Shown: one piece after another, positions 14,445 through 56,763 of the stretch
Numbering within the stretch: the stretch's first letter is position 1
Layout: every line of letters starts with the position of its first letter
Origin: Haliotis asinina
Lineage: Eukaryota; Mollusca; Gastropoda; Lepetellida; Haliotidae
DNA: 64,000 nucleotides
Direction of reading: 5' to 3'
Assembly: GCF_037392515.1 (NCBI RefSeq)
Contig: NC_090287.1
Coordinates: forward strand, 9,593,501-9,657,500
Position numbers and translations under genes: made by a program
Notes under the pieces: generated by a model
Told to the model about the DNA's origin: nothing
The model's database searches: none
What the model saw: only the letters and a program-made list of their open reading frames with translations

Positions 14445-27804
<13,360 letters not shown>

Positions 27805-29885: not shown

Positions 29886-30048
29886 GCTTATTGCTTGAAT
29901 GATACAAGAACGGAGTGTTCCTAAGTTCATCCACTATTGTCCTCATGTTGTTCAAATACTTCTATAGACGTGTAATTGTTTTACAAATGACTGAATCGGA
30001 CTCCTATAAATAAAATATATTTGCCAAATTGTCAAGATTTATTAGTTG

Positions 30049-30209
30049 TGTAGCGGCCACAAAATTTCCGTGTTCCGTGCTGGGATTCGAACGACGGACC
30101 CTCCGATCCGAGGTCGGACGCCTTGTCCACATGACCAAAGAGGTTACACACGTGAGCAAACTGACAAGGTAAGGATGTCATCTGTGGGATGACTCCACGC
30201 CCTGCTACA
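30049..30209 (-). repeat. 3' terminal direct repeat of the TRIM-like element, with tRNA-like segment
   Basis: This is the same 161-bp sequence, about 96% identical to its partner. Here the anticodon stem is perfect (TCCGA/TCGGA) and the loop reads TCG at the anticodon position, an Arg anticodon. No acceptor stem is formed, so it is not a working tRNA gene. Confidence 0.75.
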
Positions 30210-30220
30210 TACTCCCCCTT
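30210..30220 (-). promoter_or_regulatory. Polypurine-tract-like sequence
   Basis: Minus AAGGGGGAGTA directly precedes the TG start of the 3' repeat, the position where plus-strand synthesis is primed in LTR elements. Confidence 0.6.
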
Positions 30221-30296
30221 CAACAGAAGGCACGTCCCGGGCCGCATAGTTGGGTACTGAGGCTTATTTTGTTCAAATATGATATGGACGTGCACA

Positions 30297-30314
30297 GCCC
30301 CACGTTGGGCGCCA
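30297..30314 (-). promoter_or_regulatory. Primer-binding-site-like sequence
   Basis: Minus TGGCGCCCAACGTGGGGC starts one base after the CA end of the 5' repeat. The TGG start is complementary to a tRNA CCA end, as in Gypsy-type LTR elements. The primer tRNA was not identified. Confidence 0.65.
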
Positions 30315-30315
30315 A

Positions 30316-30476
30316 TGTAGCGGCCACAAAATTTCCGTGTCCCGTGCTGGGATTCGAACGACGGACCCTCCAATCAGAGGTCGGACGCCTTGTCCACATG
30401 ACCAAAGAGGTTACCCCCGTCAGCAAACTGACAAGGTAAGGATGTCATCTGTGGGATGACTCCACGCCCTGCTACA
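30316..30476 (-). repeat. 5' terminal direct repeat of the TRIM-like element, with tRNA-like segment
   Basis: On the minus strand TGGTCATGTGG (A-box-like) and GTTCGAATCCC (B box) stand 45 bases apart, as in a tRNA. Between them GACAAGGCGTCCGACCTC resembles the tRNA-Arg D-arm and anticodon region. The five-pair anticodon stem TCCGA/TTGGA includes one G-T pair and closes a 7-base loop with TCT at the anticodon position. Confidence 0.75.
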
Positions 30477-30480
30477 GTTG

Positions 30481-36299: not shown

Positions 36300-37485
36300 T
36301 GAAACACGAATCACTGACGTCACAATACTCGTTCATTCATTAACTCCCGCTCAAACAGTCATCACCAACGTCACAATGTTCACTCCCAATACACAGGCAC
36401 ACCAACGTCACAATACTCACTCCCAATACACAGGCACCACCTACGTCACAAAATTCACTCCCGATACACAGGCACCACCAACGTCACAATATTCAATCCC
36501 GATGCACACGCACACCGACGTCACAGTACTCACTCCCAATACACAGGCACCACCAACGTCACTATTCACTCCCGATACACAGGCACCACCAACGTCACAA
36601 TAGTCACTCCCAATACACAGGCGCCACCTACGTCACTACGCACTCTCGATACTCAGGCACCACCAACTTCATAATGTTCACTCCCGAAACACAGGCACAT
36701 CGACGTCACAATATCCTGATACACAGTCATCACCAACGTCACAATATTCACTCTCGATACACAGGCACCACCTACGTCACAATACTCACTCTCGATACAC
36801 AGGCGCCACCAACGTCACATTATTCACTCCCGAAACACAGGCACACCAACGTCACAAGATTCACTTCCAACACATAGGCACCACCAACGTCACAATATCC
36901 CAAAACACAGGCACCACCTACGTCATAATACTCACTCCCGATATACAGGCACCACCAACGTCACAATATTCACTCCCGAAACACAGGCACACCGACGTCA
37001 CAATACTGACTCCCAATACACAGGCACCACCAACGTCACAATATCCCGACACACAGGCACCACCTACGTCATAATACTCACTCTCTATATACAGGCACCA
37101 CCAACGTCACAATATTCACTCCCGAAACACAGACACACCGACGTCACAATACTCACTCCCAAAACACAGGCGCCACCAACGTCACAATACTCACTCCCGA
37201 TACACAGGCACACCAACGTCACAATACTCACTCCCGATACACAGGCACACCAACGTCACAATACTCACTCCCGAAACACAGGCACCACCAACGTCACAAT
37301 ATTCACTCCCGAAACACAGGCACACCGACGTCACAAGACTCACTGCCAACACACAGGCACTACCAACGTCACAATATCCCAACACACAGGCACCACCTAC
37401 GTCATAATACTCACTCCCGATATACAGGCACCACCAACGTCACAATACTCACTCCCGATACACAGGCACACCAACGTCACATCAT
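36300..37485. repeat. 35-38-bp minisatellite, about 30 copies, each with ACGTCA
   Basis: The unit is built from actcactcccgatacacagg and caccaccaacgtcacaat. Units with 'gcacaccaacg' are three bases shorter. Copies differ at cccgatac/cccgaaac/cccaatac, and groups of several units recur. Nearly every unit has ACGTCA (TGACGT on minus). Confidence 0.92.
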
Positions 37486-39219: not shown

Positions 39220-40285
39220 GTTGGGATCCTACCGTAGTGATGTTCTGGGATCTTGCAGTAGTCAAGTATTGTGATCCTACCGTAGTGCTGTACTGGGATC
39301 CTACTGAAGTGATGTACTGGGTCCTACAGCAGTTATGTCACTATAGTAGTGATGTCCTGGGATCCTACAGTAGTGATGTCCTGGGGTATTACAGTAGTGA
39401 TGTACTGGGATCCGACCGTAGTGATGTGCTAAGATCCTACAGTAGTGATGAACTGGGATCCTACAGTAGTGATGTCCTGGGGTCCTACAGTAGTGATGTA
39501 CTGGGATCCTACAATAGTGATGTCCTGGGGTCCTACAGTAGTGATGTACTGGCGTCCTGAAGTAGTGATGTACTGGCGTCCTACAGTAGTGATGTACTGG
39601 GATCTGACAGTAGTGATGTGCTAAGATCCTACAGTAGTGATGAACTGGGATCCTACAGTAGTGATGTCCTGGGGTCCTACAGTAGTGATGTACTGGGATC
39701 CTACAATAGTGATGTCCTGGGGTCCTACAGTAGTGATGTACTGGCGTCCTGAAGTAGTGATGTACTGGCGTCCTACAGTAGTGATGTCCTGGGGTCCTAC
39801 AGTAGTGATGTCCTGGGATCCTACAATAGTGATGTCCTGGCGTCCTACAGTAGTGATGTTCTGGGATCTTGCAGTAGTCAAGTATTGTGATCCTACCGTA
39901 GTGCTGTACTGGGATCCTACTGAAGTTATGTACTGGGTCCTCCAGCGGTTATGTCACTACAGTCGTGATGCCCTGGCGTCCTACAGTAGTGATGTTCTGG
40001 AATCCTACAGTAGTGATGTGCTGGCGTCCTACAGTAGTGATGTCCTGGGGTATTACAGTAGTGATGTACTGGGATCCTACAGTAGTGATGTCCTGGCGTC
40101 CTACAGTAGCGATATACTGGGATCCTACAGTAGTGATGTCCTGGCGTCCTACAGTAGAGATGTATTGGGATCCTACAGTAGTGTCGTGCTAAGATCCTAA
40201 AGTAGTGCTGTACTGGGATCCTACTGCATTGATGCACTGGGATTCTACATTGGGTATGGAATCCTAGAGTAGTAAAGTACTGAGA
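39220..40285. repeat. 24-bp minisatellite with higher-order repeats, about 44 units
   Basis: The unit is (g)tcctacagtagtgatgtactgg with variants. A block from gttctgggatcttgcagtag at 39242 returns at 39858, about 616 bases later. A block with gtgatgtgctaagatcc near 39421 returns about 192 bases later. The 24-base period makes octapeptide frames on several strands, which are not genes. Confidence 0.93.
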
Positions 40286-42755
40286 TCCTTGATAGATATT
40301 TCACGGAAAAAATGGTCACCTGCGAGGTTTAAATTGGCTTATTGCACGAAGCCAAAGGCACCTACCGTAACGCGAGAGTGTCGGCACTGGACAACAACAC
40401 GACCATGCCCTGCTGTCTTAGTTTTGAACACAATGTCAACATTACGAAATTGGACCGTAAAAAACATTGATTATTTTCTCTGGATACGGTAGCTCTTTTC
40501 GTTTACATCAAAACGTTCTAGGTTATTTTGTTTAACAAGCGTTTGTCCTACTGGTTCCAAACATGTCATTAAAATGTCTTTAATATCCTGCTAATGTTTG
40601 TACAAGATCATCTTGTGGTCTGTCTTACAGTTCCCGAACCAAAATTCCCCTTCGGTCTATCACTTACTGTACTGACAATTGAACCAGGTTCATATTTCCC
40701 ACATGATCAGAAGTTCCCATTTCACTTGGGCGCCTTTTCTGGTGACATGGACATTTTGTTTCTGCAAATATAATTATTATTTCAGAGAATGTTAGTCTGA
40801 AGGTCTCTGGATATTACAAAACCACATCCCAGTTGTCATGTACTGTAATTTCTGAAATTATGAATAATGATGATTAATTTATATAGTGTTATTAATATAT
40901 TTATTCACTGACATAGTCATGAAATATCAGCCATAAAAGTACCAATATCCCTTAATTATTTTGTCGAGTATTGTATCCCAACTAATTTACATCTAATTTA
41001 ATCCACATATTGTATGCCACATAAATCAACAATGTCCGATTGAAATTGTCTTATTTCTTTTTATTAACTTTTTGAAAAGTATTAATTGCGAGGCTATGAG
41101 TTCCCTCATCAATCTTCTTTGCCCCGGTGTCAAGAGCAACTGTACATCACTCAAGGTCTCTACAATATTGCTAATTTTTTGTTGTATGATTTGATCCCGC
41201 AGATTTAGGGTGTAGTAATCACACTGTTGTTACTGCGTTTGAACGTCTGTGTTCGTGTTATGCTTAAATATGCTTAATTGGTTTTGCTAAACCCAATAGA
41301 ACAATAGTAAAATTATATTACAGTATATTGAAAGCAATATCGCGATTATTGAACAAATTGACAACATTCTGTTGGGGAAATAAGGCAGTAAACACTATCG
41401 ATTAATGCGCTGAATACGGTAGCTTGTTTGTTTTCATAAACATAATCTTGGTTGTATTGCTTAACAAACGTTTCACGTGCTGATTCATGGCATATTAGGG
41501 ACGTTTAATTGTTTTATCGTGGCCATGAGGACAGTGGCGAAAAACAAACATTAACAACATTTATCCTGCTAATATCATGCAGAAAACTCGCTGATTTACC
41601 TGCACAGGTTCCATAACGCTAGGAAAATATTTACCTGTAATTAAGGACCTTGTGTGCAGTAAGCATGTTTGTATGTGTCATTTGTGTAAACATTAGACCA
41701 TAACAAAATTAGTATTTGTTTATCTATGAATTTCTTGTAGTGTTTTCTTGTTTGTGTTTTTTTGTTTTTGTTTGTGAACCAGGCATTCACGCTTCATGAA
41801 GTCTGCGTGCATACAATCAAATTTGGACCGGACAAAATAGTGATTGATAGTATGAGCAACGACCGGAGAAGAACATGTTATGAACATGCATTCAGAGCCT
41901 GATTCCCGATCCAGTAAACGCCTGGTATATCATGATCGGTTCTTTTGGAGCCATATATAACAAGAATACCCATGAAACATATTTCGCTGCTAGCAATAGC
42001 AATCCAAACGCCAGCATTCGTCCCAAGATATGATAATTGAATAGAACAACATATATAACGTTTTTCTCTATTTTTGATAGGCTCTTTCGCATTTCAAAAT
42101 AGAATCTACAACTATTAAACCAAAAACAAATTCATAAAACTAACTAGCATATTTACCAATAATTTTGGAAGGTTTTTGAAAGATCACATCGGACACTGAT
42201 AAATTGTGATTAATGACTTTAGTGGCACCGATGCCTCATTGAAAATGTGTCCTTTCCAAGATGTGCAGAAGACCTGTGATGATGTTGTGGAGGCAATTCC
42301 AAAAGTTGTCAAATTGATTTTAGACCACTGAACAAGTACAGAACCGACGGTGTTTGTTTCCGTCTCTGTCTTTAAGCATTCCCAACTGCATATGTAAGCT
42401 AATTTAGGTAACACAGATACATTGCCTGTAAGGAGCGAAATAAATAAATTGTTCAAAACGTGTTACTTTGCAATCAAAATGTCGACAACTGTATATACAA
42501 ACAACTATTCATTCCTCTTACGAACCATTGGTCATGATGACTCCTTTCAATCTTCCTTTTGACAGAATGAGCCCTTTGGCTAAAACAGCGATCCTTCACA
42601 TTGAGAATCAGTGTAAATGATCTGTTAACAGTTGAAAGTAATTCAGATTTAATAACTGCTAAAGATTTTCCCTGTGAACGAGATAGTAAGTTACTTGATC
42701 TGGAAAGGATTTCCAAAATAAACGCCATTTACAAAATAAATAGGCAGTGATTATC
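40286..42755. other. AT-rich sequence, probably intron of the unidentified minus-strand gene
   Basis: No second exon of the gene starting at 42963 was found, nor SINEs or arrays. Confidence 0.35.
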
Positions 42756-56692: not shown

Positions 56693-56763
56693 GCATGTGG
56701 ATGAGTTTGTGATCAGAAGCATAATCTACATCAACAACACGTGGAAGTGCAATTATACAGTTC

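Follow-up and report, generated by a model that had tools for sequence, protein, structure and literature searches.

Two direct repeats around a short centre, at positions 30049–30476 of a 64,000-nt stretch of Haliotis asinina DNA (NC_090287.1, 9,593,501–9,657,500; hereafter the window), raise the question of whether an animal TRIM can carry a tRNA-like Pol III promoter in its LTRs, and of how such an element would be transcribed and moved. We consider it very probable that this feature is a copy of a Helenus-type TRIM, i.e., a non-coding LTR retrotransposon of 428 bp whose LTRs both carry an A/B-box region derived from tRNA-Arg and which would be transcribed by Pol III and mobilised by a Gypsy element. 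This is in line with a preliminary description of the locus, which had proposed a miniature LTR element whose terminal repeats contain tRNA-Arg-like A and B boxes.

Anatomy of the element and its surroundings

The two 161-bp direct repeats with TG...CA ends named in that description were recovered at 30049–30209 and 30316–30476. They are 96% identical and differ by 6 substitutions (155 of 161 positions the same), and their termini read TGTAGC...GCTACA. The tRNA-like sequence, the primer-binding site (PBS) and the purine tract of the TRIM all lie on the minus strand. Read in this direction, the element consists of a 5′ LTR (30476–30316), an internal region of 106 bp (30315–30210) and a 3′ LTR (30209–30049). 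The target duplication of 4 bp that had been claimed is present as GTTG on both flanks. The PBS- and purine-tract-like sequences were also found in the places described: the PBS is an uninterrupted 19-nt match to the 3′ end of tRNA-Lys-CTT, compared with matches of 3–8 nt to nine further tRNAs, and the purine tract of this copy, GAAGGGGGAG, stands ahead of the 3′ LTR. The open reading frame list of the window (minimum 130 aa) contains no frame of at least 130 aa in the TRIM. The features are as follows.

30045–30048, no strand: target-site duplication, downstream copy (GTTG on the plus strand)
30049–30209, minus strand: 3′ LTR, 161 bp, TGTAGC...GCTACA
30061–30064, minus strand: TTTT in the 3′ LTR (LTR 146–149), candidate Pol III terminator
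30072–30142, minus strand: tRNA-Arg(TCG)-like region of the 3′ LTR (LTR 68–138)
30083–30093, minus strand: box B-like CGTTCGAATCC, 3′ LTR
30126–30137, minus strand: box A-like TGGTCATGTGGA, 3′ LTR, 2 mismatches to the consensus
30210–30315, minus strand: internal region, 106 bp, no coding sequence seen
30212–30221, minus strand: polypurine tract (PPT) GAAGGGGGAG, just before the 3′ LTR
30296–30314, minus strand: PBS TGGCGCCCAACGTGGGGCT, 19 nt, one base after the 5′ LTR (tRNA-Lys-CTT 3′ end)
30316–30476, minus strand: 5′ LTR, 161 bp, 155/161 identical to the 3′ LTR
30328–30331, minus strand: TTTT in the 5′ LTR (LTR 146–149)
30339–30409, minus strand: tRNA-Arg-like region of the 5′ LTR, anticodon triplet TCT
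30350–30360, minus strand: box B-like CGTTCGAATCC, 5′ LTR
30393–30404, minus strand: box A-like TGGTCATGTGGA, 5′ LTR, 2 mismatches to the consensus
30477–30480, no strand: target-site duplication, upstream copy (GTTG on the plus strand)

The window further contains three exons of a CDK-like gene (approximately 20870–27790, minus strand); one exon was searched and gave CDKL1 (4agu) as the best PDB match, and the others were assigned by eye. The TRIM shares the strand of this gene and is located around 2.3 kb upstream of its start-codon exon. SINE-like repeats with tRNA heads, together with another dispersed repeat, occur at 21310 (−), 33822 (+), 46667 (+) and 56676 (−), and at 2739, 5774, 9721, 49599 and 51407. 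Some of these repeats have tails of CTCACTCA runs, a type which we take to be one present in abalone genomes. Large minisatellites are found at 36343–37481 (38-bp unit), 39222–40289 (24-bp unit) and 14897–15702 (35-bp unit), and the long open reading frames in the latter two are probably due to chance. An inverted repeat of 257 bp (32050–32306/37572–37828, 92% complementary, 5.3 kb apart) probably represents two copies of a dispersed repeat. No protein families were found in five open reading frames of the window.

The tRNA-like region and its Pol III-type boxes

LTR positions 81–128 match tRNA-Arg-TCG at 36 of 48 positions in the 3′ LTR (score 48) and at 34 of 48 in the 5′ LTR (score 40), while the commonest LTR of the family reaches 38 of 48 (score 56). 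In 500 dinucleotide shuffles of the 3′ LTR, the mean score was 19.6 and the maximum 34, compared with the observed 48 (z 8.0), and the antisense strand scored 15. The next-best tRNAs were Arg-ACG (z 6.2) and Arg-CCG (z 5.7), with z of at most 4.2 for the remaining seven. When the whole window was scanned, the two LTRs gave the top tRNA-Arg-TCG matches, and a SINE-like head near 56700 scored 38, close to the 5′ LTR. The local SINE heads were also considered as the source of the tRNA part and rejected, as they align poorly with the LTR, with scores up to 37 and many gaps.

The starts of box A and box B are 44–45 bp apart in both LTRs, in agreement with the 45 bases reported earlier, and the boxes deviate from the consensus by 2 (box A) and 1 (box B) mismatches. 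With at most 2 and 1 mismatches, respectively, five A/B pairs occur in the window, two of them in the TRIM, compared with 0.7 on average and never more than 3 in 20 Markov sequences. When one mismatch at most was allowed in each box, no pair was found anywhere in the window, the TRIM included.

The anticodon stem-loop matching tRNA-Arg in layout, as previously described, was borne out only in part. The anticodon-loop triplets TCG (3′ LTR) and TCT (5′ LTR) and the match to tRNA-Arg are present, but the tRNA fold is not recognised: Rfam gave no tRNA match to the TRIM at the gathering threshold and only a weak snoRNA match at E up to 10, ARAGORN at default settings made no tRNA call in the TRIM, and the fold z of the tRNA-like segment is −0.21. 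A functional tRNA gene was rejected on these grounds. With relaxed settings, ARAGORN called a tRNA-Arg at LTR 68–138: at -ps80 the call fell in the 3′ LTR, and at -ps70 both LTRs were called; the commonest LTR gave no call at -ps95 or -ps85. Letter-shuffled LTRs were called in 1 of 400 cases at -ps80 and 24 of 400 at -ps70. However, -ps80 yielded 32 calls in the window, 31 of them outside the TRIM, and the relaxed calls were therefore discarded as evidence. Because the A/B match is present but the Rfam, default ARAGORN and folding results are negative, the LTR has kept its promoter-like boxes and largely lost the tRNA fold.

Of 82 LTRs of 161 bp in the family, 80 have an identical box A and 72 an identical box B. 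The A/B-box columns do not significantly exceed the rest of the LTR in conservation, since 18 of 104 equally shaped column sets are as conserved, and conservation of the boxes was therefore rejected as a sign of selection. The only sense-strand T4 run of the TRIM lies at LTR 146–149, once per LTR. It is intact in 76 of 82 LTRs, and at least one T4 run arises by chance in 47% of shuffles.

These data also bear on a reading in which the element is an ordinary Pol II-driven TRIM, and the captured tRNA or SINE piece is now a passenger that no longer drives transcription. The lost fold, the two mismatches in box A and the lack of significantly higher box conservation all speak for it. Against it stand the near-uniform boxes across LTRs and their tRNA-like spacing, together with the absence of AATAAA and ATTAAA from both strands of the TRIM. 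Overall, we regard loss of promoter function as unlikely and prefer boxes that would still direct Pol III.

Genome-wide copies and target sites

The family was searched for in the source genome (1.143 Gb, 159 contigs). For the LTR query, 40 of 1325 first-look candidates were scored and yielded 42 matches; for the centre query, 40 of 222 were scored, with 40 matches. The exact 20-mer spanning the LTR junction and PBS, CATTGGCGCCCAACGTGGGG, had 89 matches in the genome, while its reversed control had none. The analysed loci comprised 49 from the LTR and centre queries, 39 from the junction-PBS motif and the window; 11 were without a TRIM, and 82 chains were obtained. As the loci were chosen as best matches or by the exact PBS motif, conservation and youth are biased upwards. 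The 29 loci from the LTR query comprised 17 full copies, 7 solo LTRs, 2 partial copies, 2 LTR-centre-LTR-centre-LTR arrangements and 1 inverted LTR pair, and the proportion of solo to full copies reflects this choice of loci rather than a genome-wide ratio.

Among the complete chains, 48 of 52 LTR-internal-LTR copies lie between exact 4-bp duplications, as do 7 of the 10 solo LTRs and 4 of the 6 tandem copies; the other 4, 3 and 2, respectively, have none. The remaining 14 of the 82 chains are incomplete, and none of the 82 has a 5-bp duplication. By chance, 4-bp flanks of different loci agreed in 18 of 2652 pairings. The centre is conserved among copies, with the PBS identical in 23 of 24 internal regions, and the purine tract is usually shorter than in the window copy, reading TGTTGACGGGGGAGTA (GGGGGAG) in 21 of 24 copies. 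Tandem arrays with a 267-bp unit were also found, one with 11 LTRs and 10 centres (L083 2772–5602, G000:C13) and one with 4 LTRs and 3 centres (L121). At one further locus (L120), the TRIM LTR and PBS are followed by sequence unrelated to the known centre, which may be a truncated copy or another internal region. Beyond this genome, no TRIM copies were found in the plasmid collection. Four viral-contig patterns found no locus, two others found 5 and 14, and a genome-contig pattern found 10; in the best 30 BLAST rows of the TRIM against these 29 loci, the alignments extend over 17–27 bases.

Two head-to-tail units of a tRNA-derived SINE, moved by a LINE, could provide a tRNA-like region in each repeat, and several tRNA-headed SINE-like repeats are indeed present in the window. 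In contrast, the family has TG...CA ends, a PBS, a PPT and exact 4-bp duplications around nearly all complete full copies, no A-rich or SINE tail was seen at the end of the TRIM, and the local SINE heads align poorly with the LTR. A SINE dimer was rejected on the LTR anatomy and the 4-bp duplications, and we judge it extremely improbable. The preliminary description had named simple SINE dimers, or a centre not conserved between copies, as findings that would speak against an LTR element; the copies analysed are TG...CA elements with 4-bp duplications and a conserved centre. At the level of sequence, the LTRs, PBS, PPT, 4-bp duplications, solo LTRs, tandem arrays and many near-identical copies firmly support an LTR-type life cycle.

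The LTR pairs are identical in 8 of 27 full copies with two 161-bp LTRs, in a sample biased to close matches; the maximum is 7 differences, and the window copy has 6. The TRIM is a real, recently active retrotransposon. Furthermore, a palindromic target preference was observed outside the duplication, first noticed on 41 sites and described here for 59. T occupies the sixth base to the left of the insertion in 43 of 59 sites, and A the second base to the right of the duplication in 43 of 59. At 16 of the 59 sites the duplication is preceded by ATG, whose frequency across the loci is 0.022 overall, and at 13 it is followed by CAT.

Mobilisation and comparison with known systems

The 11 junction-PBS loci without a TRIM (of 39) contain a different family with the same TACA-T-PBS stretch. 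The ten others are 98.9–99.6% identical to locus L119 over 1.35–2.4 kb; the alignment of L136 to L119 begins 242 bp before the PBS, and the match of L132 ends about 155 bp after it. One copy could be delimited at G000:C6 5854433–5868233 (L119, L142, L143, L146, L147 and L148). Its first LTR starts with TGTAAAGG at 5854433, an edge common to two other loci, and its second LTR follows AAAGGGGGGGAGAG and extends from 5866136 to 5868233. From these edges, the LTR measures 2098 bp within a total span of 13.8 kb. Over the 1.6 kb compared, the two LTRs show no difference, and CTCA on both sides forms a 4-bp duplication (one copy with both flanks). Between the LTRs, PNMA gag, RVT_1 and RNase H domains were found, with a below-cut-off match to Integrase_H2C2 at the end of the piece. 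A further open reading frame of at least 194 aa follows pol.

On sequence grounds, this Gypsy element with a PNMA-type gag is the best candidate helper seen. A Gypsy element with the same ends, which the preliminary description had suggested looking for, was found as far as the TGTA...TACA ends and the one-base spacer before the PBS are concerned, but only 23 identical bases, the LTR end plus PBS, are shared with the TRIM (L119, L132 and L142 compared). Beyond these, the sole match in the same three loci is 15 bases long (E 5.5). The T preferred by the TRIM is seen in 4 of 6 helper 5′ flanks, judged by eye and assuming a 4-bp duplication for five of them, which are too few to decide. Since the 23-bp link is largely PBS, unrelated Gypsy families using the same primer could have it. 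Moreover, the helper scan covered the exact 20-mer rather than other tRNA-Lys Gypsy families. Another Gypsy lineage as the true helper is therefore quite conceivable, even if we lean slightly away from it. The PNMA-gag candidate is favoured by its youth (identical LTR stretches in one copy), the 4-bp duplication which it made in that copy, and the terminal TACA, spacer and PBS in common with the TRIM.

In the favoured reading, Pol III would initiate in the 5′ LTR around LTR position 60, shortly before box A, read through TTTT at LTR 146–149 of this LTR and terminate at the TTTT of the 3′ LTR. The resulting RNA would be about 350 nt long with a terminal repeat R of about 85–90 nt. tRNA-Lys would then prime reverse transcription at the PBS, with reverse transcriptase and integrase presumably supplied by an autonomous Gypsy element. 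As a counter-argument, the T4 run in the 5′ LTR would end many transcripts early. According to a passage of PMC10886601, transcripts of Cassandra begin within the 5S portion of the 5′ LTR and stop within the corresponding portion of the 3′ LTR. Because they run from 5S to 5S, similar start and end logic is plausible for the TRIM, with a longer R. The fullest version of this reading is a still-active Pol III-driven gastropod LTR element that captured its tRNA-Arg independently of bivalve Helenus. A tRNA-type terminator TTTT, bypassed in the 5′ LTR and effective in the 3′ LTR, would define the ends of its RNA. It would be moved by the young PNMA-gag Gypsy, mimicking this helper at the LTR end and PBS only. 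Taken as a whole, we regard this version as possible but rather doubtful. If true, it would provide the first directly testable helper/parasite pair for an animal TRIMp3.

The preliminary description had viewed a tRNA-bearing animal TRIM as a separate, undescribed invention. This claim does not hold, because Kojima 2024 describes this kind of element and named TRIMs with tRNA-like LTRs “Helenus” (TRIMp3) (PMC10886601). Helenus is reported from six animal phyla, including 51 bivalve families, and has a PBS, a PPT and, in animals, 4-bp duplications (PMC10886601). It is unlikely to encode a functional tRNA, though tRNAscan-SE recognises some families and seven bivalve families could encode a tRNA-Thr, and its transcription by Pol III is described as unproven (PMC10886601). 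The molluscan hosts in Table 1 of that paper are pteriomorph bivalves only, and its main text does not contain the word gastropod. Among the matches listed, the titles and abstract openings of literature on Helenus/TRIMp3 and on gastropod or Haliotis TRIMs included no gastropod Helenus.

The parallel with the plant TRIM Cassandra drawn earlier is apt in that both carry Pol III promoter sequence in their LTRs (PMC10886601). Cassandra has a 5S rRNA sequence, a plant host and reported Pol III transcripts, whereas the present element is tRNA-like, animal and known from sequence alone. The 5S rRNA promoter that marks Cassandra and Ajax was not found in it, as Rfam gave no 5S match at the gathering threshold or at E up to 10. 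The biv-TRIM of bivalves resembles it as a molluscan TRIM with solo repeats and tandem arrays (Satovic 2019, PMC6934838). In excerpts of that paper, no canonical PBS is identified, in contrast to the 19-nt match here, and tRNA is mentioned for PBS searches, not as a promoter; this comparison is one of descriptions. tRNA-derived SINEs share the tRNA-derived A/B boxes but are without LTRs, PBS, PPT and fixed 4-bp duplications, all of which the TRIM has.

The closest counterpart is Helenus, with which the TRIM shares a short non-coding LTR-internal-LTR structure (161/106/161, 52 complete copies among 82 chains), tRNA-derived A/B boxes inside the LTRs, PBS and PPT, and the 4-bp duplication. It differs in its host, which is not in Table 1 of PMC10886601, and in its tRNA-Arg-TCG-like sequence, compared with the tRNA-Lys-TTT to which a legend in that paper aligns representative molluscan Helenus. 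By its defining features the TRIM fits Helenus, set against the published families by description, not by sequence. It is a new family of a published kind rather than a new invention; new here are a host outside the PMC10886601 list, the palindromic target preference and the candidate helper. A gastropod host extends the known hosts of Helenus past the bivalves in the 2024 list. Through its youth and abundance, the family lends itself to testing Pol III transcription and the identity of the mobilising element for TRIMp3, and concrete, checkable predictions are offered by the T4 terminator position, the target preference and the candidate helper.
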